Of a DNA stretch of 64,000 nt, positions 1,392 through 63,341 are shown piece after piece (position 1 is the stretch's first letter; each line of letters opens with the position of its first letter). Source of the DNA: Brachyhypopomus gauderio (taxonomy: Eukaryota; Chordata; Actinopteri; Gymnotiformes; Hypopomidae); NCBI RefSeq assembly GCF_052324685.1, contig NC_135218.1, positions 10,686,516 through 10,750,515 of the forward strand, in the 5' to 3' direction. The notes under the pieces were generated by a model, which saw only the letters and a program-made list of their open reading frames with translations, did not search any database and was not told the DNA's origin. A program made the position numbers and the translations under genes.

Positions 1392-4086
1392 TCAGCCCGG
1401 GTTCGAGCTGACCAGCGCCTCCTTCATGCGGTCGCGGGCGAGAGTGTAGCGCTGTACGATCTGCTTCACGTGTTCCTCCTCCTCACGCTTCAGAATTCGC
1501 AGGAAATTCTGAAGCTCTGGCATAGAGAATGCATCCCACTGGAAGAAAAAACAAATGATGGCAAATACTTTTTAAATAAAAGTGTTAAGAACAACATGAA
1601 TCTTTTCCTGTGCTCATGGCTCTCTCAGTAAGGGACACACCCTCAAGGAGCTACCTAATTATCCAACAAGAGAAGGGATAATAAAGTGTAGAGTTCTGTA
1701 GACAATGTTACATTTCTTGCTTTTAGTAAGTTATTTTCTTAATGACAATTTGTGAAATTCATCTTAAAAGATGTTTTTGTATACAATGGTACGCCCATTT
1801 TTTGTAATGTGTTATTGTGTTTTGTAGATGTGTTATTGTGTTTTGTAGATGTGTTATTGTGTATACTGTAGACTGCTGGTAGTTTTCCTGACAGTCACTT
1901 ACATTGACCTCGCCGGTCTCATTCTCCTTCAGCACCAGACTCAGGACTTTGTCGTTGGGTCCGGCACACAGGCGCAGGTAAAGTGGACACTCATCATCAG
2001 AGAGCTTCCGTAGGTACACTGGGGTCAAGAGAAGGTTAGAGAGACACGGTTACATGGACATCTAGCAGCTGTCCACGCTAAAGAATGTGAAGCAATCTAC
2101 GAAATTCTAAACCCAATCCACAACACACACACACACGAAATCCTAACTCCCACTGAACTGGTTAAGGAGGGCTGGTACATGTTACACAAGTGAAACACAA
2201 GGTTCACTTTTCACATTAAAAAGGTGAATTCACAGCACTGCACCCCAACAGTTTCACACCTTGCTCGTGACGCTCGGTACGTTCAAACAGTGCAAACTTG
2301 GCAGGATTGTCGATGACGGTGAACTTCTTGAGCAGGGCCTGGATCACGTCTTTGGCGCGGGTCTGAGAGCTGATGTGCAGGTGTTTAGCCGTGTCCTTGG
2401 GAAGGTAGAACGATGTGCGTCTCTTTACGACTCCGCCCCTCTTCCCACTGGCCGACTCTTGGGCCGCAGTACGTTTATGTGGAGGCGGGACGGACACTGG
2501 CCTGACCAGCTTCAGATGAACTTTAATGAAGCCAGTGTAGCTGCCATCTTTGTTCTGTGTGCAGTTCAGACAATATAATAGGGAACAGGTTCTGCATCAG
2601 TGCACTGGCTAAGTAAAATAAACAATATGAAAGGGAAAATTAACAAAAGAATATAAATGGAAATTTTAAGTTTTATAGAAGTTTAATTCAGTTGGATAAA
2701 TGTTTTCTTTAGTCATTTTAAGTCTTACCATACACATGAAGAGGTTGCTATTGATCTGTGCATTATACTCCTTTACTTTGTGCTGGATCTCTGAAAGTGA
2801 AAATTCTTGTTTCTTACTCTCAATTACCTCATCCTGTGGGGGAGAGAAAGATAAGAGTATATTAATCATCATTTCTGTTAGGTTCTAATTTCCTGACAAC
2901 AGTGGGTGGATAAGTCTATTACCTCCTACATTGAGTCATCATTAGCATTTAGTTCACATTAATCGAAGGGTAATTACTGGTGCTCATTAATCTCTGATGC
3001 TACTGGGTGCTGGCAGACAGCTGTCTAGAACTTCCCCAGAAATCCACTGACAGAAAAGCATCTGGACTTCATCACCTCAGATGCCTTCCAGGCAAAGCAC
3101 GGAGCCCACATGGAGATTGTGTGGGAGTCAGGAGATGAATCACGCATTTCTCACACATAACTCTCATGTCACAAATCTGTGCACAACTGACTGCATGAGG
3201 ACAGCTGTGCTGATGGGTCAGGTCATATAATTGTCTTAGGTTGAAAAAGGATACGTCTTTTTAAGGTCTCACCTCTTTGAATATGTGTGGAGTGCTTAAC
3301 TCGCACTATGAGAGTTCCAGTGCTTTATACATTTTAGATACCAGTATGGCATATGCTACCAGGATATACTACCAGGATACAAGCTCACAAGAGATGGTGG
3401 GGTAGTTTCAAAAACCGTCTCACACAATTGAGAGAACAGCTGGAGACAACAACTGACCTCTTACAAAAAGTTCATACCCGACATTACCATGCGCCACCAC
3501 AGCAAATCTTTTTACTTGTTCTTTCTTAGGTGAAGTACAATATTTAACTTTCACTTTCTTAGGTGAAGTAATGTCTCACGCTCTTCAAATAGCAGATCAT
3601 TTTGTATTCCATGTTGAATTAAAGTAACATAATCCAGTACTCTTTTCAGTTAGCCACCAAGTTGCATCAGACTTCCTACATTTCCTGTTGAATTAAATGG
3701 GGCAGACCCATGATGTCACTGCTAGCCAATCACATCCATGAGCCCATCCTATTTCTCGTGAGAATGACACCATGTGGATTGTTGCAGCTGCCCGGTCATG
3801 CATGTCTTGGGTTTAGAGCTTGAATTCCTGAACCTGGTTAGTGTAAAAATAGCTCCTTCCCCCCTCCTGCCTTTTCCCTAGAGAAAGAAGGCCTCCCTTG
3901 TGTGCCTTTACCATGTGGGAGTCAAACAGCTTCATTTTTCATTAGTGTAGTCATGCTTCCTGTTTCCTGTCTATACACAAACATATTCATCTGGTTTAGT
4001 CAGAAAATGTAACACTATTACAATGCTACAGCTTCTATTAATTATATTTATATTGTACTCAAACATCAAATTTCCTCTTTACACTA

Positions 4087-5391: not shown

Positions 5392-8097
5392 TGTAAGAAT
5401 ATCTGGAGTTCGTAAATCTGTTCAAGGTTAGATATTAACCGCTTGGTTAGGCTTCTCAGTGAAAGAAAGTAGTTTTTTCTGCTGAAAATGAAACTATACC
5501 GCCTGTAAAATCCACACTTAAGCCGCACTGTCAAAAAAGTTAATAATTCTTATTAATCGCGAACTATCTGATGCTGTTATCGTACAGTACGCCTATATAT
5601 CCGGCCTCGAACGAGATAATGTAACAGTTTTCACCGTTTCCACGTTGCTGCTTCCTCACGCCGGATGCGCCCCACCCTCACAGTTGAGATTGGAAAATAC
5701 ACAAGCTGAACCAGCCCCGCCATGATTGGCTGAAAACGGGAAGTTCCAACACGACGGTGACGTCATAGCCAGGCGCCATTCTATCGCGCGTCGTTACGCG
5801 CGGGAAGAAAAGCTCAAACCATGGAGCATCGAAGTGCTGATTGGCTGGGCGTACAGTTGCGTAGGCACACGGGGACAATCGGCCTTCTGTTGTCTGTTCA
5901 TTTATTTATGCATTTACCTATTTAATGGCGTAAATTACAAAATATACATTAATAAAGCATAAAACTCTCCATCTCGACAATGATGATAAAAAAATCTAAT
6001 TGTAAACTAAACGTGATCATGATTAAATGTGATAACTGTTTATTAACCATTACTGTACAAGTTAACATTTAGTCATGTTAACATTGTAACATGACTAAAG
6101 GGAATGACAAATCAGAGAAATTGAAAGTTGAAATTGTGCTTCTCTCTCAGTACATTTTTGAAACGCTCAGTAGCCTGCAGAATATAAAACAAGTTGGTGT
6201 CTACTGTATGGTATATCAATAATGGAGTATAAAATAACTGGAAGTAAAACTGGGTAACTTCTATCGATGAATATGTCAGCCCAGTCAGCGTTGTTCTGCA
6301 GGGATGTGGGAGTGTAATGGAATTTTGCGGGAGCAGAATCCAAAGTCTCAGTACACTTTATAAAACGTGGTTCATTATTAAATGCATTCAGTAAAGGTCT
6401 TAAGCATATACTGGTCACAGTGCAATAATTGTCTCTGCAGTGTTTTACTAATTTCCTTTAAAGGCTGCACTAAGAGTTTACAGTTAATAGCATGCTGATG
6501 TTTGTTGCAAAACAAATTAATGATTGTTAAAACATATTGGTGATTATTGAAGCTAATGATGTGTTTGTCTCCCTGTCACTGGCCTGACCAGCACCTCTGT
6601 TCAGAATGTTTATATTTTTTGTGCATATTCAGAGAGCAAATCTCTTGCTTCTCTACTGTAATTATATTGTATTTACACAGTTTATGTTTTTGAAGCTTTT
6701 ACATATTTACTCCACTGTATTACAAGTGATAAATCCTCATTTTGATTGCCGTGCATAGTCATGCAGCTACTGTTTTTAATCCGATTGTCTGTTGACTTGA
6801 CACTATAAGATATAACTTGCAAAACACTAGGTAATGATATTGACTCCTGTAGTTTAGTAGTAGTCTGACTCAATGGTGTCTTGAATTCTGGCCTATCCGT
6901 ACTATTACCTAGGATGTATTCTGTGATCAGAAGCAAAGCACATTGTAAGTCGCTCTGGATAAGAGCGTCTGCTAAATGCCGTAAATGTAAATGTAAATAT
7001 AGGTATGGTTCTGAGAGGGTAAGCCACTTTCCCTGTGGTCATTTTACAGATTAGCATTCCTCAATATTTACTGACAATGCAGTACAGTAAGAGAAGAAAG
7101 TGTCAATGTGAAAGAAATCTCCTGAACAGCAAAACATTTCTCATTGCATTCATAGCAAGTTTTACTATAGGCAATGTGGGCTTTGTTTATTGGCCATTTT
7201 ATTGGAAAATCTGAGTTGGGATTGAACACGACAGGTATTGATGCATCTGAATATTGAAAAAAAAAGTTTGGGGGGACTGAAAATATATCCCTTGCATATC
7301 TCAATCAGCAGTAATACGTTTGTTCATAATACTCCATAATGATCAGGTCATACTGTGCTCATAAGCACACTCAGTAGTGATCGCTGTGATTGGTAAGAAT
7401 TAGCTCAAAAACGCTATTCAAAATGAGAAAAGCCTGACTGTGACTCAGGAGGTGTGAAGTTAAACAACATGTTAATTGTTCTTTTTGCAATGAGGGTTTT
7501 TAATTGTGCAAAGTCACAGTGATTATGAAGTGGTGGTAGAGTTTTTGTTTGCATCCCTACTCACACAAAATGTCAGCGTCTAACAGTAAACACACACATA
7601 ACCTTGCAGATGTACAGTTAGAGACTATCTGTTCCACTGTACATGGAACACCTTGCATGTGTCCAGTTAGAACCCTTGTGTTCCATTTCACTACAAACAC
7701 CTTTTAAGTGCACAATTAAATTAAAGCCGTGTTTCAGTGTACTAGAAACACTTTGCTGGTGTACAAATAGAGCACTGTGCTCCATTGTACTTGAAACACC
7801 TTGCAGGTGTACAGTTAGAGCCATGTGTTCCACTGCACTAGAAACACCTTCAGGTGCCATGTGTTGCTATGCCTATTTTGTATTAGTCATCTTCTATCCA
7901 TTCATCATTAGTTAGTTTCTACTTGCTGAATGTTTTTGGCTGAAAGTATCAAAAACACAGCAGAGCTCTGCCTATTACCAGTTCACCACCCACAAATCTG
8001 ACACTACAATGGAAGTGTATTGGAATGATCAGACACCGAAATACTTCCACTTTACAGCATGGTTAATTTAAATTAAGCATGCAGTTCAGCATAAATG

Positions 8098-8138
<41 letters not shown>

Positions 8139-11100
8139 GCAAATATATACTGTATTACTCATTTACTGCCCTGCTGCATAGGTAGTGAGTTTTTGTAGAC
8201 CCCATAATCCACATTAGGGCATTAGGTTTGGTATTGCTTAATAATATCATAACCTCTTAGCCATCCATTATTTTACTTATTAATCTTAAGGCACATTATT
8301 ACTACTGAACTGTGAACTGTGAATTAAAACTAATGTGAAATAAAGCATTAAAGATTGGAGCCAATGGCAAGACCTGGAAGATTAAATGTTTGATTTTAAG
8401 TTTTACCTATTAGCCAGTCAGCACTGTCCCTGTGATTAAAAACAAAGATTGAGCAGTAATAAATAGGGCACAGAGGGTTAGATGAATAGTGAGAGCCAGA
8501 GGTGGATTACACTCTGTATCTTCAAGGTAGATGCATCTAATAAGGTAGCAAGTGAGTGCAGGTAATTTAAATGGGGCTAAATTGGGCTATAGTGCACCTA
8601 TATATAGTGACGTTTGTATTGTCAGACAATATTGTTACTACTAAGCTAACGATGGGTTTTTAGTAAACGACAAGACACCTTGTGAAATTGATACGATTTA
8701 CTGTTTTGCTAAACTTCCTGGTACAAAATGCACTTAAGACCTTAAACAGATGCACAATTAATTATTTACCTACTGTCACGCTACGGTCCCCGAACCCTTC
8801 CTTTGGGGCGTGTGTTAATGTTGTCTGCGTCTATTCGTCTGCGTCTGTGTACCTCCGTGGGTGTGGGTGCGTCTTGTCATTATCCGTCTCACCTGTGGCT
8901 CGTCTCGTCATCACGTGGGGTTGATGTGGTCTGTCTATTTAATGTGCGTTCGCGCAGTGTCTTGTGCTCGTCGTTGTCTACAGTCTGCACGTTGTGTGCT
9001 GTGTGTGAGTGTTTATCGTGCGCTGATTGCGCAATACTTGTTGTTAAATTAAAGTGACTGTGTGTGAACAACCGGACTCGTGTCTCGTCCGTCTCTCTGG
9101 CGCCACCGGCACAGAACGACGAGCCGACAAGAGACACCAAGCCATGCCAGGCTACACCACCCGGCCAAAGAAGGGCAAGAAGCCCAGCAAGCGCCGCCAT
9201 GCCTCTGCTCCTGCCCCACACCGCGCGGCCACCGTAACTCCCGAACTGATGGAGCAGGACCCGTTATGCAGCATCATGCTGCTTCGGTCTCGGGAGGCCA
9301 AGACGGTGGAAATGGCGGAGTATTTCCGCCAGACCGCGGTGCGGATGTGGAAGGAGCGACACCCCTGTCCAACCAGAGACCTCTCGCCCCTGAGGGTAGG
9401 CTCCCTCGAACTCTGCTCCACAGAGAAGACTCCTGAGAGCGAGTTCGAGGGGGAGGAATCGGAGAGTGAGGAGGAAGAGGAAGATCAGGCTCCCTCGGTT
9501 TGTTCCGCCTCCACCGTGGACTACGGTGAGGAGGAGGACTACCCTCCATCCGTTTGCTACGCCCCCACGGTGGACTATGGTGGGGGAGAGGGGAACGAGG
9601 AGGACTACCCTCCATCTGAGTGCTCCGCACCTGCCGTGGGCTACGGTGAGGAAGAGGAGGAGGAAGACGACGAATACCCTCCGTCAGACTGCTCCGCACC
9701 AGCCGTGGGCTACGACGAGGAGGTGGAGGAGTTCGAGTCGGAGGAGGAAGGCAGTCCGCCTCCCTCGGAGTGTTCCGCTGGGACTGTAAAGGGGAGGTGG
9801 ACACCAGAGACGGTCCCATCCTCCGATCGTTCCGGAGGAGAGAGGATGGACTGCTCCCGGGGTGGCAGCCCGGAGCAGTCCATGGAGTGGGACCAAGGAG
9901 AAGAGGAGGAGGAGATGGAGACCGCAGGGGATCTCCCAGGCGGTCCGCTCGGGGCGTCCGCCGGTCGCGCAGCACCCGGCACGTCCGCCGGTCGCGCAGC
10001 ACCCGGCACGTCCGCCGGTCGCGCAGCACCCGGCACGTCCGCCGGTCGCGCTGCACCCGGCACGTCCGCCGGTCGCGCTGCACCCGGCACGTCCGCCGGT
10101 CGCGCTGCACCCAGCGGAGGATCCGCAGCAAAGACCGGAGGAGGACCGTCCGCTGCAGCACCGGCAGCTCCCGATCTCTCTCCCCTTGTCGCTCTACTCC
10201 TGGCGCGTAGTCTGGCGCCTGTTTCATGTTTGTGTATGCCAGTGTTCGTAAGTCTTCCCATTTGTGTGCCTAACCCGTTTTTCCCTTTCGTTCCACTATG
10301 TGTAAGTGTACCTGTGTGTGTGTTTGTGAATGTCCCGTTAAATGTGTCTAACGTGTTTTCCCCCGTCTTCCCAGGGAGGGTGTTCTAGACTGTGCGTGGC
10401 GGACTCTCCGCCGAGGGCGGTCATCTCCCAGACGCAGGACTGGGCGCTTCAGATCCGCCCATCGACGTGGGTTCGGGGCACTCAGTCCTGTTGGCACCCC
10501 GGGACGGGTAGTGCCCTTGGTGGGGGCGTCTGTCACGCTACGGTCCCCGAACCCTTCCTTTGGGGCGTGTGTTAAATGTTGTCTGCGTCTATTCGTCTGC
10601 GTCTGTGTACCTCCGTGGGTGTGGGTGCGTCTTGTCATTATCCGTCTCACCTGTGGCTCGTCTCGTCATCACGTGGGGTTGATGTGGTCTGTCTATTTAA
10701 TGTGCGTTCGCGCAGTGTCTTGTGCTCGTCGTTGTCTACAGTCTGCACGTTGTGTGCTGTGTGTGAGTGTTTATCGTGCGCTGATTGCGCAATACTTGTT
10801 GTTAAATTAAAGTGACTGTGTGTGAACAACCGGACTCGTGTCTCGTCCGTCTCTCTGGCGCCACCGTCACACCTACATAACAACTTATGCCATTAGGATG
10901 AAAACATTGAAAACATTTAAACTGTTTCATTTAAATCATATATATAACTTCATATAATAAGACAGAAACTAAACAAAATCATTTCCAATTTTGGAATCCA
11001 AAAAAACAGTAAAACATTTTAACACCTATATATAAGGTAAGGACTTCTGAGGAAGTGACCTGTGGCTGCATGTCTTACCACATTGGTATCCGTTTCACTG

Positions 11101-44299: not shown

Positions 44300-44854
44300 A
44301 TGATTAAAACCGGCTCTCGTTCAACCACCTCCGTACCTCCGGAGCCAGTGGAGATTATCCGGAGTAAGACATGCTCCCGACGGGTGAGATTGAATGTTGG
44401 CGGACTCCTACATGAGGTGCTGTGGAGAACCCTGGACCGGCTGCCCCGAACAAGGCTCGGTAAATTACAAGACTGCAACACTCACGAATCCATAATGGAA
44501 GTATGCGACGACTATAACCTGGACGATAACGAGTATTTCTTCGACAGACATCCAGGGGCCTTCACTTCCATCCTGAATTTCTATCGCACGGGAAAGCTGC
44601 ACATGATGGAGGAAATGTGTGCTCTGTCCTTCAGTCAGGAACTGGACTTCTGGGGCATAGACGAGATCTACCTGGAGTCCTGCTGCCAGGCTCGGTACCA
44701 CCAGAAGAAGGAGCAGATGAACGAGGAACTGAAGAGGGAGGCCGAGACTTTACGGGAGAGGGAGGGCGAAGAGTTCGACGACACCTGCTGCATGGAGAAG
44801 CGCAAGAAGCTCTGGGACCTTCTGGAGAAGCCCAGCTCGTCCTTCGCCGCAAAG
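44300..44854 (+). CDS. kcnb1: Voltage-gated potassium channel Kv2.1, first coding exon (partial gene)
   Basis: Pore-forming subunit of the neuronal delayed rectifier. This exon encodes the first 185 residues and ends in phase 0 at AAG|GTAACA. It starts [20 protein letters not shown]; an in-frame TAA six bases upstream fixes the start. [20 protein letters not shown] begins the T1/BTB tetramerisation domain, followed by [20 protein letters not shown] and the Kv2-typical [20 protein letters not shown]. The Kv2 NAB region ([20 protein letters not shown]) follows. The known gene has its only other coding exon, with six transmembrane segments, beyond a very long intron; I do not find it before 64000. 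Kv2.2 (kcnb2) is the alternative, but ptgis next door favours kcnb1. TTTTTTGCAG at 44172-44181 suggests the exon starts at 44182. Confidence 0.93.
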
Positions 44855-46213
44855 GTAACAAGCTTCGTGGAGAGCTAGCCTGCTTTTCATTCACCCAGTG
44901 GCCTTATTTTTGCTCCCCATAAAAAAAATGCCCTTCATCATTCACTGCGTGAACGTACCTGTTTCAATGATCTAGCATGCGGTTTCCAGCATTCTAGCGT
45001 ATTTAGCCTAGAAGACGTACATCAGAAGCAACCGGACCCAGAATGGTATGATTAAAAAAAACAGGGCTTTTAAAAAAGGGTTATCCAAGAATGCATCCAG
45101 ACATCTTTTAGATGTGCAGTAATGGAGGTGTAATAATAACCTACATGAAACTGGAGCAGGGCAAAGTGACAGTGCTATAATTTGAATTACATGGGAGTGG
45201 TCCAGAAGAGTCAATATCCTTTGCTCTTCTATGTGTTTTCTAAGTAAGTGCTGTCATGTTATTTTCCATATCAAGCTAATTGCAAAACGCTATGCTGATG
45301 GAGTTAAAGTAATGCGCCAGCGTGTCCACGAGAAGCCTCCAGAATCAGTTTAATGTAGTTCCAGTGGAGTATGCATGGCATTAGCACTGCTAGAGGAGCT
45401 GCAGCTTTGATATTATCAGTAATTATATGCTCTTAACCCACAAATGCTCTTGAACTCCACATTTGTCTACACTACTGACAGAATGTGAGATCAGAGTGGA
45501 GCGCACCTCTGACATTTCTACACTCTTATGGAAATACATTACATACAGTAAAGTGATGCAGTATCTGCATTATGTGACAGTGTTAGTTTTGCTATGTGGC
45601 AGAGATGTTCATTGAATTAAACATTTTATAATAAAAAATACATTTACACAGCCATGTATCATGCATATAATTACATAAGTGCATATGAGGGACCCTCCTA
45701 TAACTTATTAATGTGCTTTACTATAAATGCTGGTCAGGTCTAATTAGCAGTGCACACTCCTGTCAAATGATACCCAGTGAGTCCCACATTACGCATATAC
45801 ATCACGGTGCAATTAGCTTAGAAGGGACCTGCTTTGTAAATCCATCCTGTAGATCTACTTGCTGATTATCACAAGTCAGATGACTTTGGATATTTCCCAC
45901 TTATCTACTTTTCCACAAGTCACAGATAGTTACTCGTTAGAGTAACTATACTCGAGAATGGAGGACATATGAAGAAGGAGGCATAAAATGACAAGACGTG
46001 TTCAGTTACATATTTCAGCACTGGATGTCTTTGATGACACTTAGCCACAGAAGTGTCAGTAATCATAGAGAGACAGGGTTCAGTTTGAAGAGGATTGTGC
46101 TCCTACTTAAGCACACTCTCTAGGGTATGAGGGCTTCTTCACAACTTTCAGTTACTCTTTCTCAAGAGTTTGTCTCTCAGACAGTTTCTTTCTTACCTCA
46201 GTCACAGACAGGA

Positions 46214-47230
46214 GTTGAGATACAGCGTCTTTAATCACACACTCATCCTGCTCAGGTGTTGAGATACAGCATCTTTAATCACACACTCATCCTGCTCAGG
46301 TGTTGAGAGACAGCATCTTTAATCACACACTCATCCTGCTCAGGTGTTGAGAGACAGCGTCTTTAATCACACACTCATCCTGTTCAGGTGTTGAGAGACA
46401 GCGTCTTTAATCACACACTCATCCTGTTCAAGTGTTGAGAGACAGCGTCTTTAATCACACACTCATCCTACTCAGGTGTTGAGAGACAGCATCTTTAATC
46501 ACACACTCATCCTGCTCAGGTGTTGAGAGACAGCATCTTTAATCACACACTCATCCTACTCAGGTGTTGAGAGACAGCATCTTTAATCACACACTCATCC
46601 TACTCAGGTGTTGAGAGACAGCGTCTTTAATCACACACTCATCCTGTTCAGGTGTTGAGAGACAGCGTCTTTAATCACACACTCATCCTACTCAGGTGTT
46701 GAGAGACAGCATCTTTAATCACAAACTCATCCAACTCAGGTGTTGAGAGACAGCATCTTTAATCACACAGTCATCCTACTCAGGTGTTGAGAGACAGCAT
46801 CTTTAATTCCACACTCATGCTACTCAGGTGTTGAGAGACAGCATCTTTAATTCCACACTCATCCTGCTCTGGTGTTGAGAGACAGCGTCTTTAATCACAC
46901 ACTCATCCTGCTCAGGTGTTGAGAGACAGCATCTTTAATCACACACTCATCCTGCTCAGGTGTTGAGAGACAGCATCTTTAATCACACACTCATCCTACT
47001 CAGGTGTTGAGAGACAGCATCTTTAATCACAAACTCATCCAACTCAGGTGTTGAGAGACAGCATCTTTAATCACACACTCATCCTACTCAGGTGTTGAGA
47101 GACAGCATCTTTAATTCCACACTCATCCTGCTCTGGTGTTGAGAGACAGCATCTTTAATTCCACACTCATCCTGCTCTGGTGTTGAGAGACAGCGTCTTT
47201 AATCACACACTCATCCTGCTCAGGTGTTGC
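46214..47230. repeat. 44-bp minisatellite, about 23 copies
   Basis: The unit GTTGAGAGACAGCATCTTTA, ATCACACACTCATCC, TGCTCAGGT recurs about 23 times in tandem. Variants (GCATC/GCGTC, CTGCT/CTACT/CTGTT, CACAC/CAAAC, TTCCAC) recur in separated copies, as expected from block duplication. No unique spacers. Confidence 0.95.
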
Positions 47231-53200: not shown

Positions 53201-55395
53201 TGTTCCAAGCACATACCACTAAGAACTTGAATCTTCACACCATCAGGCTGATGTTTGATTCAGCCAGTACACCATCCTGGGTGGATATAGAGTCACCACC
53301 ACTGTCCAGACTGACCCTGTGGGAATGAGGCCAGACACATTTCACCAAATGGATGGAATCCAAACAGTACCAAGATGCTGGGTGTTTGCTTGGGCCCCAA
53401 TATGGAGTAAACCAACACTGATGTTAAATGATATTTAAACTCTTGATTGTGCACTTTAATTAGAACAATGACACACAACAGTAACCTGTGTGGCAGACAA
53501 ACAAAGACTTCACTCTGCACATTTTACCGCTGCGTTGACTTTGCCAGCGCTGCTCCATAGCAAAACGAATCAGCTGTCATGTAGTAGCTCGCTCTGCTTT
53601 GTGTTGCTTTGGCCAATCAGTAATTACCTGAAACAGACACTGAATCCTCGTCCTGCCAACTCTACTCTACAAGAGCCAACAGGCATGATAAATAAAAGAT
53701 CAACTGAATGAATGAGTGTGGGCAAGAGCTATAGACACACATAATGGCCCCGTTCATTCAGGCTTTAGCTCCAGCATTATGAACTAAGTGGAATCATTTA
53801 ATCAGAGTTGTGGTGGAGCTGTGCTGTTGTGGAAGACCAGAGAGGAAGATCCTCTCTTGCAGTTAATGAAGAGGGCGACTAAGATGGGTCTCAGGGACTT
53901 AGACTGCTGGAAAGCTCTGACCTCATCAGTGTTGAATTACCAAATCATCAGGCTTTAGGGGGACACTGGATCAACAAACAAATAGATTGAGTTGCAGTAA
54001 GTCGGCTATTTGGTCACATGAGACATGGAAAGTCATTTACTGCTGTTAACTGTTAACTGTTCACTGAATGGAGTCTGGAATTTAGAAAGTTCCCAATGAG
54101 TCTCTCCCTGCACTGTGTTATGACAGAGAAGTTCAGAGGTCTCTTCAGGAAAAACGCCTGCTTTTGAAAAGTCTCTGCTGCAGTCAGGACAGTGTTGGCA
54201 ACACAGCACTTTCTGTACCCGAGTGCCGGCGTAAACTATAGCTGAGGGACAGATGGATGAGTGATTGAAGACTTGTGTGGCTATCCAGATGGGAGAGACC
54301 TCTTTGGCTTTAGTTTTAGACAAACACACAGAGAGAAAACGCTGAACAAATACACATGGTCTGCTAATAGCGTAGCCCTATTCACATAGTGAGCCTAGAG
54401 TCATCTAAGACTACAATGGTCACAAGCAGATCAGACATGATAGGAGATAGTAGAGACAAGGCAAACGAATGTAATAGCATTGTAAGGTCATAAGAACAAA
54501 TATTGCAATTTATCACAAAATACATTCAATGAGCAGTGGAAATATATTAAGAGCTTTCTACATTAATTAATGAACATTATTGAAACATACTCAGGTTGCC
54601 ACAAAATGAATTATCAGAGAAAATAGCAGAAAAAAACCCAGCAAAATACTTAACACAACACCACTTTATTATTTTTTATTTTAACAATATGTGACTAACT
54701 GAAATTAGCAAAAAAATTTAAACCCCCCACATGCATTTAGAGATTAAATGCATATAGAGATAAATGTACTGATGAGACATGACCATTATGCTGCAATTTC
54801 CAGTTGACAGACACTTGGTTAAACAAAGCAACTACTAAACTTGCCTACAAAATGGATTATAGGATAACAAAGGCCTCTCTAAGGTTCAGAGGGAGTTCCC
54901 TTCTGCTCCTCTGATTCACACTTTATTTGATTCATGGGGGTATGTGGAGTTGAAAGGGCAAATGTGGCACCCATGTGTGGCTTCTATCGATTCACCTGCT
55001 GCCCATTCCCCAACACCTACCTAGAGTAGGAAAGAATGTTGGTTGCCATAGCAATGGACCACGGAAGATGTTACCAAGGGGATGCCTGGCTATTCCACAG
55101 GGAGGAAATAGTTGTAAGGAGTCTGGGTGGATTTCTGAGTCAGGGCCCCCCGCTCCCCGTAGTTGTCTCCTACAGGAAATCAGCTATTAACGCACATCTC
55201 AGGGAGTTACTCTGAGGACAGAGGAGCTGTGGCCAGCATCAGCTGGCGTTAGGAGCGCAGTGCAGACAATATGAACCTGAAAGCAGTGACCTTAAGCCTG
55301 ACCCTAAAATATCAATAGCGGTCCACAACAGGAAGGTTGCACGTCCTCATCCCAGTTCTCAGGATCCAGTGGATGGTCCATACTGTTGCTCATAC

Positions 55396-57391
55396 ACAGG
55401 TCCCTATTGACCTCTTATGTCCCCTCTCTTCCAAACCCACAAGATCCTCCCCACCTGCTCCTTGGCTCTCGGACACCCTACGTAACAACCGACGAGAACT
55501 GAGGATGGTTGAGAGGCGATGGAGGAAATCGAAGCTTACTGCTGATCTTCGCTTGTATCAGTCTCTCCTGTCCCTATTCTCCATGGAACTAACTGCTGCC
55601 AAGACATCATTCTACAGAGAGAAGCTGGAGGCATCTACATCAGATCCACGCAAGATGTTCAAAATCTTCTCTTCTCTCCTCAAACCCTCCCCCCCTCCAA
55701 CTCCCACTTCTCTTACTGCAGATGATTTTGTCACCTTCTTTGAAGAGAAGGTCAATACGATTCGCAGCACCTTTTCCCTAGTCCCTGTTCCCACTGTGTC
55801 CCCTCCTACTCCTCCCTTTTCTCTAACCTCCTTCTCTCCTCTCTCAGCTGAGACGGTGCTTCAGCTGCTGACATCCAGCAGTCCCACCACATGCCCTCTG
55901 GACCCCATCCCATCCACACTCCTCCAGACAATCTCCCACGAACTCCTCCCTTTCATCTCGACCATCATCAACAACTCCTTATCTTCAGGAATTGTGCCAT
56001 CATCATTCAAGGCGGCTAGGGTGGTGCCAATCCTAAAGAAACCCAACCTTGATGCCACCAACATCAGCAACTACAGACCGGTATCTCTCCTCTCATTCCT
56101 TTCTAAGATCCTTGAACGGGCTGTACACAACCAGCTATCCTCTTTTCTCTCACAGAACCAGCTTCAGGACCCCAACCAATCTGGCTTCAAGCCGGCACAT
56201 TCTACGGAAACTGCACTCATTGCAGTAACTGAGAAACTCCATGCGGCTAGAGCAAATGGACTATCATCAGTTCTGATTCTGCTTGACCTTTCGGCTGCCT
56301 TTGACACAGTCAATCATGAGATCCTTCTGTCCATCCTCTCAGGCCTTGGTATCACTGGCAATGCATGGACATGGTTTGCATCCTACCTGGAGGGTCGTTC
56401 CTACCAAGTAACATGGGGAGGATCAACATCCACGCCATGCAAACTCTCCACCGGTGTTCCACAAGGCTCAGTACTGGGTCCACTTCTTTTTTCCCTTTAT
56501 ACCCGCTCTCTGGGTGAGTCAATATCTGCACATGGCTTCTCTTATCACTGTTATGCGGATGACACCCAGCTCTTCTTTGCCTTCCCACCCTCTGACACAC
56601 AGGTTTCAGCTCGAATCTCTGCATGTCTGAAAGACATTGCCTCTTGGATGGCAGCTCACCACCTAAAGCTTAACCCAAGCAAGACGGAGATGCTGTACAT
56701 CCCTGCAAGAGCCAGTCCTCATCGTGATCTTTCTATCTCATTCGAGAACACCGTGATCACTCCATCCATGGAAGCGCGTAGCCTTGGTGTAGTTGTCGAC
56801 AATCAGCTCTCCTTCACGGCCCACGTTGCTAACACAACACGATCATGCAGATTCGCCCTTCACAACATTCGGAGGATTCGGCCATTTCTCTCTAGGGAGG
56901 CCACTCAGGTCCTTGTCCAGTCCCTTGTTATCTCAAGACTGGACTACTGCAACTCCCTACTGGCTGGTCTTCCTATGCATGCCATCAAACCCCTGCAACT
57001 GATCCAGAACGCTGCAGCTCGGTTGGTCTTCAACCTTCCCAAGTTCAGCCATGTCACTCCCTTGCTGTCCTCCCTCCACTGGCTTCCGGTAGCTGCCCGC
57101 ATCAAATATAAAACCCTGGTGTTGGCCTACAAAGCAAAGGATGGTCCAGCTCCTCCTTACTTGATGGCCATGGTAAAACCCAGATGCATACCTAGAGCCC
57201 TCCGCGCCTCAAGTATGTCTCGTCTTGACCCTCCATCATCCAGGACACATGGGAGACAAGCATCCAGACTTTTCTCTGTCCTGGCTCCAAGGTGGTGGAA
57301 TGAACTTCCCTTGTGTGTCCGAACATCGGAGTCACTTGCTGTCTTCAGACGCCGACTGAAGACCCACCTCTTTCAAGTGCACTTTGCATAA
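55396..57391 (+). CDS. L2-type reverse transcriptase ORF (5' truncated, otherwise open)
   Basis: About 665 codons without a stop. An open frame from 55337 adds non-element residues at the start. RT motifs in order: YRPVSLLSFLSKILERAV, QSGFKPAHSTETALIAV, LILLDLSAAFDTVNHEIL (catalytic Asp), GVPQGSVLGPLLFSLYT and YADD at 56552-56563. The C-terminal region with HWLPVAARIKYKTLVLAYKA and WNELPLCVRTSESLAVFRRR is typical of fish L2/CR1 elements. There is no apurinic endonuclease, so it cannot retrotranspose alone. The intact frame suggests a fairly recent insertion. Confidence 0.9.
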
Positions 57392-57670
57392 TTATGCTTT
57401 GTCTATTGTACTTTATCGTCTCTTTCCTCAGGTATTGTGCATAATTGGGTTATAGGAATTGTTTACTGTCTTTTTCCTCAGGGGATGTGTATATTCAGGT
57501 ATAATTGTTAGGTATCATTTGACTTTCGTCTAGTGGTTTTTCCAGCTTAGAGTACCTTGTGTTCTATTCTACCTTGGAGATTCCAAGCAACTACATAGCA
57601 CTTTTGTAAGTCGCTCTGGATAAGAGCGTCTGCTAAATGCCATAAATGTAAATGTAAATGTAAATGTAAT
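55396..57670 (+). mobile_element. L2-clade LINE, 5'-truncated, with 3' tail
   Basis: The coding part starts between the endonuclease and RT domains, so the endonuclease is missing. The element ends in the conserved tail GTAAGTCGCTCTGGATAAGA, GCGTCTGCTAAATGCC and (ATGTAA)n at 57605-57670. It is in the same orientation as kcnb1 within its intron. The left border is approximate: L2-like protein similarity begins near 55396. I saw no target duplication, which is usual for this clade. Confidence 0.9.
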
Positions 57671-60601: not shown

Positions 60602-61585
60602 CTCGAGCACAACAGTCACTAATGCCTATAATGAATAGATTACCTGTACAGAATGATATATCTACCTGTAAAACTGTATATATATCAGAACAATAAAAGG
60701 CCCTGTATATCCTGGTCTCACCCATTACTGTGCAGGTACCTAGACATAAAATGTTCACTCTAAAAGTGCCTGATGCCATCTTAAATGAAACAATAAGCTC
60801 ACAAGTAAAATTCCAATTGGCAATTCTCAAACTATTCTATATAATTCTGACTGTGGGTTATTTCCCTGACTTCTGAAGTCAATGTCTCACAACACCCATT
60901 TCAAAAGTGGAGATAAATTCATCCCAAGTAACTACTGTGTGAACTGTGAGTGGGGAATGTTTGCTGTAGTATTATTAGTTTGAGTCTTATAGGTTTCCTT
61001 GTGTAGCACAGCGTTTCAAATGAAGGTCAGACGGGATCCATACCAAATCATAGCAATCAGATTATATTTATACATCAGAACTAACATGTTAGCAATAACA
61101 AAAAATAAAATATTTGCATGTTTCATTGACAGTTTGGCACAGTGGTCCATTCTGCAAAGTTCTTGAAACTGGTGAAGGATGTCAAACATATTAAATTATT
61201 ACATTTAATATGTAATATTAATTTAATATAACATTATTAAATCCATGTACACAAACAAGTGCATTTCCATGTCATTAAACTGTCCACCATTTTAGAACAC
61301 TGCAGTAACTGGTCTCTCTACTCAGAAGTCGCGCAAGAAGACAAGAAATGATGCCTGTAGGCCTGAATGGGGTCAACTTCAAATCTGAAATAAAGATTCC
61401 TATATACTACATACTACATACATTAACAAAAAAGAGTCATCCCCACTCATATCACTCTGCCATGCTGAGAGCTGAACAACAAACCAAAAAACAAAGAAAA
61501 TCAAACCAAATTATAACACCTTAAAAACTAAACTACATCACCCAATGGAGAAGACCTCTATGAGCACAAAAACAAATTGTTGCAG

Positions 61586-62450
61586 TGTAGTCTGGCTCTA
61601 CAGTGCTGTCTGGCCCTACAGTGTTGTCTGGTCCTACAGTGCTGTCTGGCCCTACAGTGTTGTCTGGCCCAACAGTGTTGTCTGGCCCTACAGTGTTGTC
61701 TGGCCCTACAGTGTTGTCTGGCCCAACAGTGTTGTCTGGCCCTACAGTGTTGTCTGGTCCTACAGTGCTGTCTGGTCCTACAGTGTTGTCTGGCCCTACA
61801 GTGTTGTCTGGCCCTACAGTGCTGTCTGGTTCTACAGTGTTGTCTGGCCCAACAGCGTTGTCTGGCTCTACAGTGTTGTCTGGCCCAACAGCGTTGTCTG
61901 GCTCTACAGTGTTGTCTGGCCCCACAGTGCTGTCTGGCTCTACAGTGCTGTCTGGCCCTACAGTGTTGTCTGGCCCCACAGTGCTGTCTGGCTCTACAGT
62001 GCTGTCTGGCTCTACAGTGTTGTCTGGCCCTACAGTGTTGTCTGGCCCAACAGCGTTGTCTGGATCTACGGTGTAGTCTGGCCCTACAGTGTTGTCTGGC
62101 CCTACAGTGCTGTCTGGCTCTACAGTGTTGTCTGGCCCCACAGTGCTGTCTGGCTCTACAGTGTTGTCTGGCCCAACAGCGTTGTCTGGCTTTACAGTGT
62201 TGTCTGGCCCTACAGTGTTGTCTGGATCTACGGTGTAGTCTGGCCCTACAGTGTTGTCTGGCCCCACAGTGCTGTCTGGCTCTACAGTGCTGTCTGGCTC
62301 TACAGTGTTGTCTGGCCCTACAGTGTTGTCTGGCCCAACAGCGTTGTCTGGATCTACGGTGTAGTCTGGCCCTACAGTGTTGTCTGGCCCTACAGTGCTG
62401 TCTGGCTCTACAGTGCCGTCTGGCCCTACAGTGCTGTCTGGCCCTACAGT
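61586..62450. repeat. 18-bp minisatellite, about 48 copies, with higher-order structure
   Basis: The unit TCTGGCCCTACAGTGTTG recurs about 48 times. Because 18 is a multiple of three and the unit lacks stops in several frames, it is open for about 300 codons on both strands; the minus strand reads (GPDNTV)n and the plus strand (VVWPYS)n, (CCLALQ)n or (LSGPTV)n. The marker variant TGGATCTACG recurs at 62061, 62223 and 62349, 9 and 7 units apart, showing block duplication. No start context, splice site or codon bias supports translation. Confidence 0.95.
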
Positions 62451-63341
62451 GTCGTTTATTCTATTATTTTCTCGTCTTATCTGCATAATATTCTTTAATG
62501 TTAATTACAGTTCTTTTCATGGTAATTACTAATAAGGTATAAATTCCTTAGTACATTTTGTAAATGTTCATGCTTGTTTTAATATTGCTATTGTTTTAGT
62601 ATTCTTTTGGCAATATTGTAAATGAAAAGCTTACTTATTTGAAATCACGAGAGAGAGAGAGAGAGAGACAGAAAGAGAGAGAGTCAGTGAGAGTGATAAG
62701 TACTGCTTTTACTTCTAGACAAAGATATAGGTCTACCTGCTGACCTGCACTCATTCAATCTTTCTTTCACACTTGTCCTTTAGGCCCCGCCCTTTTCCAC
62801 TCCCTCCCCTCTCACCTGTCCTCCCGCTTCTATATCCAGTGTCCAATCAACTCGCAGCTCTCCCGTTCTTTTATTTGTTTGTCATTCTATTCCATGCGAA
62901 CGCATGCTTGATCAACTGTGTAATCAATGTTGTAATACAGCAGTGCTGACTCAGAACACATATTAAATATCGCTGCTTTTACAAATCTCTTGTACTGTGT
63001 GTGTACACAGATATTGATTGGGTTTCAAAACAGGACAGATTGTCTCAGCATTTATTATTATGGGTGCATGCTTTTTCTGGAATGGCTTCTCAGAGCAGTG
63101 GACCAGTAGGACAGAATACATGCATGAGGATTCCCACTACTATAGCGATCTATACTGTAGGGTTAGAGATCTATCAGAGATTCAGCTCTCATTCCAGTTT
63201 CCAACACTGGCTTCATGTAGATCTCACCCACAGCTCTGCTTATGAAATAAGCACAGGAAAAACTGGAATTTGTGAGTAGTTTAGCTTAGTTCTGCCTGGT
63301 TCTTCCAATGACGACCTTAGAGATGTTTCCAGAAACTTTGA

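Follow-up and report, generated by a model that had tools for sequence, protein, structure and literature searches.

A stretch of 64,000 nucleotides from Brachyhypopomus gauderio (contig NC_135218.1, positions 10,686,516 to 10,750,515; hereafter the window) contains at positions 8774-10871 a genuine and young long terminal repeat (LTR) retrotransposon, which is probably a non-autonomous, self-primed, sushi-like element that works like a Tf1/sushi element and encodes a selected protein of no recognised family. Because the element has no polymerase gene (pol), it is filed here as sushi-like in its working and not as a member of sushi by phylogeny. The common picture of non-autonomous LTR elements is that of passengers that carry no gene under selection. 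In the present case, a pol-less family of hundreds, some of them very young, appears to keep its protein under purifying selection across synonymous differences per site (pS) of about 0.4, which makes it testable whether a retrotransposon parasite can evolve a gene of its own and whether such a gene acts in cis. That a pol-less element belongs to a family of this size which keeps an unfamiliar protein under selection suggests a parasite of other jumping elements that carries a useful gene of its own.

Positions are window coordinates unless a contig is given, fetched copies are labelled L009-L048, and genome loci follow the form G000:contig:position. The element is a complete LTR element of 2098 bp on the forward strand, as are its parts named below. 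Its 5' LTR (340 bp, 8774-9113) and 3' LTR (341 bp, 10531-10871) are bounded by TG...CA and differ in the alignment by a single substitution (9109 G / 10867 T) and an indel of 1 bp. The target-site duplication (TSD) CCTAC was read directly on the left (8769-8773) and on the right (10872-10876), and together with the LTR alignment it upholds the view of an earlier sequence-only reading that this is a genuine product of retrotransposition. The family was followed in the window's own genome (796.5 Mb, 840 contigs) with the first 269 residues of the encoded protein as query, the best 143 of 3819 candidates being scored, and 251 matches to these residues were found among the scored candidates. Forty copies, hand-picked from the best matches across the identity range, were fetched and make up, with the window copy, the 41 copies discussed here. 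A usable LTR pair is present in 37 copies (36 of the 40 fetched and the window copy; the pair of L023 was excluded because its repeat spans a tandem junction), and 32 of these have an exact 5-bp TSD with TG..CA ends. Several family copies are young and the family has been active recently, since 9 of the 37 LTR pairs are identical and 25 show at least 99% identity. The LTR-paired copies are 2.05-2.30 kb long in 35 of 37 cases and therefore leave no room for pol; the outliers are L033 (1.5 kb) and L019 (3.6 kb), where extra sequence, which was not searched for pol, breaks into the tail of the open reading frame (ORF). Same-strand family copies about 1.8 kb apart (C12:16197044-16201231, C2:13358235-13360638, C3:8676178-8678638) appear to be tandem units sharing LTRs, and L023 is among these apparent cases.

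In passages of PMC10085805, self-priming is described as common in the Tf1/sushi group, the RNA 5' end pairing with the primer-binding site (PBS) and two further duplexes flanking this pairing. As far as it can be read from the letters, the layout of the window element is that of these self-priming elements, a feature that the sequence-only reading had missed. A tRNA primer site would usually open with TGG, and none starts within the 30 nt following the 5' LTR (9114-9143). The putative PBS AACGACGAGC, located 1 nt past the 5' LTR (9115-9124), is the exact complement of GCTCGTCGTT at 8966-8975, the probable self-primer and RNA 5' end, which begins 30 nt past the first base of the TATA box TATTTAA (8936-8942). 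A complement of at least 10 nt anywhere in the LTR is not rare (241 of 20000 shuffles); an equally good complement at the place of the self-primer was found in 13 of 50000 shuffled LTRs. In our own reading of the rows, the exact match of self-primer and PBS is present in 34 of the 41 copies, each time with the 30-nt TATA distance despite differences in LTR length. Throughout the genome, TATTTAA followed after 13-33 nt by GCTCGTCGTT occurs at 3162 sites (reversed control, 1), the spacing being exactly 23 nt in 97 of 100 listed sites, and the exact PBS CACAGAACGACGAGCC occurs at 793 sites (reversed control, 0), of which 700 have GAGACAC 1-12 nt behind the PBS. In the window, GAGACAC (9131-9137) is the complement of GTGTCTC in U5 (9080-9086), and the two could form a second duplex of the Tf1 type; GTGTCTC is found in R-U5 of 43 of 49 copies, and both motifs together in 41 of 49. 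Further signals are a poly(A) signal ATTAAA near the LTR 3' end (9048-9053) and a G-rich region ahead of the 3' LTR (10518-10530), which is the candidate plus-strand primer.

The region downstream of the self-primer behaves differently from its surroundings. Pairwise distances, measured in 33 of the 41 copies, have medians of 0.026 in U3, 0.035 in the 3' untranslated region and 0.326 in R-U5, so that R-U5 is hypervariable whereas U3 before it and the PBS after it are both almost constant, and the switch from constant to variable sequence falls at the self-primer. The R-U5 sequences of 38 copies (window 8976-9113) fall into 11 types that are at least 20% apart (median 33%), and at least 8 pairs of copies with a distance below 0.03 in leader and N-terminus have R-U5 sequences that are 28-39% apart. 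From this pattern we infer both that R-U5 may be exchanged at the first strand transfer between co-packaged RNAs and that U3 and the 3' region are strongly constrained. With 11 R-U5 types and a median U3 distance of 2.6%, the family offers ready material for studying self-priming and how co-packaged RNAs exchange templates. The 3' untranslated region itself is predicted to form a hairpin (10390-10543) that spans the G-run with the plus-strand primer and reaches into the first bases of U3. This hairpin is very stable (z -4.44), far more so as sense than as antisense RNA (-95 vs -65 kcal/mol), and its region is conserved in sequence among copies; L042, which has identical LTRs, and L046 are without part of its inner arm. 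Covariation in the hairpin was found to be unsupported, with 11 of 23 distinct paired changes keeping the pair vs 10.2 expected by random placement (reached in 1676 of 5000 placements).

The ORF (9144-10388, stop TAG at 10386-10388) starts at the first AUG of the putative RNA and encodes 414 amino acids, which is longer than the best ATG ORF in all 5000 dinucleotide shuffles of 9114-10530 (95 on average, 403 at most). The protein consists of a basic N-terminus (charge +9 in residues 1-30), a helical segment, a strongly acidic middle with EEDYPPS-CSA modules (9468-9791), an A/P/G/R nonapeptide array encoded by 5.9 in-frame units of 27 nt (9955-10112) and a hydrophobic C-terminal tail (10182-10385) with 19-residue hydrophobicity averages of up to 2.12. 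The acidic repeats are spaced by 54, 66, 69, and 81 nt, all multiples of three like the unit of the array, and the numbers of acidic modules and nonapeptides differ among copies with the frame preserved. The 414-codon ORF with acidic modules and an in-frame array, as first described, is thus borne out; the hydrophobic tail is present as well, although the emphasis given to it has to be corrected, as it is genuine protein sequence and better conserved than the rest of the ORF. Residues 33-72 (9240-9359) are predicted to be helical with high confidence without an alignment (block means of the predicted local distance difference test, pLDDT, of 82-98 for residues 31-70), and the single-sequence fold prediction of residues 1-105 (mean pLDDT 70.7) has helices only there; a Foldseek search of this predicted fold against PDB and BFVD gave no match at E ≤ 0.001. 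Searches against Pfam (whole ORF at E ≤ 1, three ORF pieces at E ≤ 10) and NCBIfam retrieved no family, and the PDB sequence search gave a single chance-level match (E 0.47), in agreement with the initial impression that zinc knuckle, protease, reverse transcriptase, and integrase are not recognisable in the ORF. The place of the ORF right behind the PBS, its start at the first AUG, its basic N-terminus and the purifying selection described below would all suit a highly diverged gag that still forms or joins a particle, and the element would then be gag-only like the terminal-repeat retrotransposons with a gag domain (TR-GAG), in which this domain is the only coding part. We consider this unlikely, because the searches of Pfam, NCBIfam, and PDB contain no gag, capsid or zinc-knuckle match, the helices predicted for the N-terminal 105 residues are confined to residues 33-72 and have no structural relative, and the strongly acidic middle and the hydrophobic tail are unlike a nucleocapsid.

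That no known retroelement protein in the searched libraries resembles the ORF would also fit its capture from a host gene, which the element would now transport or put to use. This origin seems quite unlikely, as the query has its 251 matches in the genome, the 40 places read are all element copies, and no single-copy host homologue was seen among the best-scored candidates. Searches of viral, prokaryotic, phage, and plasmid collections gave no copies, as expected for a fish element. The association of ORF and leader is close: the ORF start ATGCCNGGNTA lies within 5-35 nt after the PBS at 734 of the 793 PBS sites, and of the 59 sites without it, 8 were fetched (8 of the 9 exceptions among the first 100 listed sites), which have altered starts, shortened leaders or broken frames and carry an ORF relative in 8 of 8 cases. 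With these exceptions and the short length of 35 of the 37 LTR-paired copies, no gag-pol parent of the window element, the finding that would have undone the first interpretation, is present among the copies read. The element is highly unlikely to have arisen by internal deletion from an autonomous element that has these LTRs and survives at unread sites, and a pol-bearing relative alone would not explain a selected ORF; what such a derivation has in its favour are the sites still unread, namely 51 of the PBS exceptions, some 19 variants of the G-tract and two promoter sites 7.7 kb apart. These two, at C1:3272904 and C1:3280653 (region to 3280692), are same-strand promoter/self-primer sites with no exact PBS listed nearby, and could be a longer relative or partner or two solo LTRs. 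The G-tract variants belong to 29 sites with another G-tract base before the start TGTCACG(C/T)TACGG, 19 of which read GGGGGAGTC; TTCTAG, as at the ORF stop, occurs at the right distance in 9 of these 19 (genome total, 42 such sites), and a further variant (C24:3154282) sits behind a tail match.

In 34 of the 41 copies the frame can be read from the ATG without a stop to a shared C-terminus, an intact fraction that is an upper estimate because the fetched copies were drawn from the best matches; in this upward-biased sample the ORF is not randomly broken in the copies read, a point on which the sequence-only reading had staked its view. For pairs of copies, the ratio of nonsynonymous (pN) to synonymous differences per site, pN/pS, a value for which pairs are non-independent and behind which stands no likelihood test, is 0.39-0.51 for residues 1-100, 0.47-0.55 for a middle piece, and 0.48, 0.19, and 0.15 for the tail in very close, middle and distant pairs, respectively. 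The proposed comparison of nonsynonymous and synonymous substitution rates (dN/dS) across copies likewise points to purifying selection, with medians of 0.34 for residues 1-100 (41 copies) and 0.08 for the tail (23 copies). Changes in the tail sum to 266, 102, and 1041 for the three codon positions (total 1409), and both shifted forward frames give pS < pN, as does the +2 frame of residues 1-100. The five acidic modules within the window ORF have a pS of 0.61 and a pN of 0.30; of their 221 summed changes, 122 fall on the third codon position, and the +1 and +2 frames are reversed; one antisense frame looks alike because it shares the wobble position. A search with the 68-residue tail listed 150 matches out of 3912 candidates, and all 150 are stop-free with at least 84% identity. 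Judged by these codon patterns, the ORF protein is under purifying selection, which appears strongest on the hydrophobic tail. A frame that is open by accident, with the constraint acting on RNA sequence or structure, could draw on the GC-rich repeats, which yield a long ORF on the other strand as well (317 amino acids), and on the very stable hairpin in the 3' region, but it is scarcely plausible given that third positions dominate the tail changes, shifted frames have pS < pN, the modules behave alike and length differences between aligned intact copies keep the frame; constraint on RNA only was rejected by the frame controls for tail and acidic modules. Least credible, and rejected, is an intron in the tail, whose strong acceptor-like site at 10374 ranks 19th of 4340 window AG sites by a weight matrix but whose donor-like sites at 10248 and 10302 rank only 333 and 219 of 4055, the second being impossible in the L034 group (CVNV for CVSV), and which does not agree with the low tail pN/pS in distant pairs.

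In a non-autonomous, self-primed, sushi-like element, the 5' end of the RNA would fold back and prime minus-strand synthesis, while reverse transcriptase, RNase H, integrase, and the particle would be supplied in trans by one of the many sushi-type chromoviruses in the genome. Such helpers are plausible because the sushi-type integrase C-terminal domain PF24626 is common in the genome (best 150 of 1765 candidates scored), with many matches within frames of about 1500-1650 amino acids. There is about an even chance that the protein favours the RNA from which it was translated, since broken copies would otherwise be mobilised like intact ones and selection would be unable to keep the ORF. As to how it could do so, we can offer only a tentative guess: the basic N-terminus might attach to RNA or to a nuclear import factor, and the conserved Val/Pro/Cys/Phe-rich tail might anchor the protein to a membrane or to the partner particle, delivering its own RNA for packaging. 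Slightly less likely still is the wider idea of a lineage of satellites with a gene, in which a protein from outside the known retroelement protein families, with a basic helical head, an expandable acidic middle and a conserved hydrophobic tail, lets the element put its own RNA into particles made by sushi-type chromoviruses, or even supplies something that the partner needs; in the latter case, the pair would be a two-part retrotransposon.

Several observations weigh against a self-primed element with a selected protein and a sushi-type helper. With regard to the leader, the exact match between self-primer and PBS is missing in 7 of the 41 copies, both flanking duplexes of at least 7 pairs arise in 706 of 5000 shuffles and are within chance for the window sequence alone, and the minimum-energy fold of the leader is without the self-primer helix and no better than shuffles (z 0.47), in a method that cannot show crossing pairs; covariation is not demonstrable for this helix, because it is invariant where intact. 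With regard to the protein, stops occur in 15 of about 136 listed places with an N-terminal match (own reading of the list), the constraint on the tail is weaker in very close pairs, and the +1 control frame of residues 1-100 has a pS close to its pN (0.147, 0.151) and is not reversed. The protein's preference for acting in cis is a deduction from the selection seen, not a direct observation. With regard to the helper, no autonomous partner was found via the PBS exceptions, the sushi integrase 3' ends or the other G-run/TGTCACG contexts, with 51 of 59 PBS exceptions and about 19 of 29 G-tract variants left unread: neither the LTR nor the 3' region of the element was matched in blastn by any of 20 sushi-type 3' ends at E ≤ 0.01, and 4 further sushi-type loci gave scattered weak matches only (best E 0.003, simple repeat).

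Other LTR families of the same genome begin in a similar way, with a G-run followed by TGTCACG (L081, L082, L086, L088; L083-L085), and a CACCTG block is present in U3 of 6 of the 7 TGTCACG-start relatives (L081-L086, L088). Convincing similarity to the ORF was not found in the 1.2 kb seen of each of these loci, where weak matches concern the tail in L086 and other-strand repeats in L083-L085. L083, L084, and L085 (C1 near 522564, 3283181, and 5462697) have a long repeat-rich frame up to the 3' LTR, with PVPATQERSS-like repeats and a Val/Pro-rich end, in which no pol was seen by eye within 1.2 kb, no search having been made. L081, L082, L086, and L088, together with C1:795738-804844, represent a further family with GGGGGGTC or GGGGGATC before TGTCACG; the six sites in C1:795738-804844 are about 1.8 kb apart and may mark LTR elements that lie in tandem and share their LTRs. 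In L087, what we take by eye to be a frame for reverse transcriptase and RNase H runs directly into the G-run and the LTR without a following integrase, an order that presumably corresponds to that of Gmr1. Elsewhere in the window are a long interspersed element (LINE) with a 684-residue reverse-transcriptase frame and an UnaL2-type 3' element (55337-57646), a second UnaL2 3' end that stands alone (6932-6985), and two tandem arrays, one with 88-bp offsets (46209-47229) and one with offsets that are mostly multiples of 18 bp and several frames open on both strands (61583-62455). Window exons presumably resemble kcnb1 and ptgis, of which only a BTB domain (44300-44875, Pfam) is confirmed.

Compared with known non-autonomous LTR elements, the window element shares with terminal-repeat retrotransposons in miniature (TRIM) and large retrotransposon derivatives (LARD) the combination of LTRs and replication signals without pol. 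According to the sections of PMC3532108 that deal with them, TRIM are shorter than 1000 bp and LARD have LTRs of about 4.4 kb, and both are without coding capacity (PMC3532108). The present element differs from TRIM by its 2098 bp and its selected ORF, and from LARD by its LTRs of 340 bp and, again, the ORF. TR-GAG and BARE-2 are named in part of PMC10552921 as non-autonomous LTR elements that need a helper (PMC10552921), and unlike these, the element has yielded neither a gag domain nor an autonomous relative that shares its sequence. By its sequence features it fits neither TRIM, LARD nor TR-GAG, the last being set apart by the absent gag match, and a literature search at the level of titles, with Repbase and Dfam outside its scope, found no publication title describing such an element. 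From Tf1 and sushi it differs in having no recognisable gag, protease, reverse transcriptase or integrase and a protein without a library match, and from the sushi-type loci of the same genome in its LTR start, the 24 loci examined having other LTR starts or none that was recognised. Poly(A) motifs close to the LTR end are reported for sushi LTRs in an excerpt of PMC3601003, and the element resembles the Tf1/sushi group in such a signal near its LTR end, in the G-rich tract, in the TG..CA ends and in the 5-bp duplication. It also appears to share with Tf1 and sushi-ichi, which are Ty3/gypsy chromoviruses, an expected RNA 5' end that is complementary to a PBS behind the 5' LTR in place of a tRNA-type PBS.

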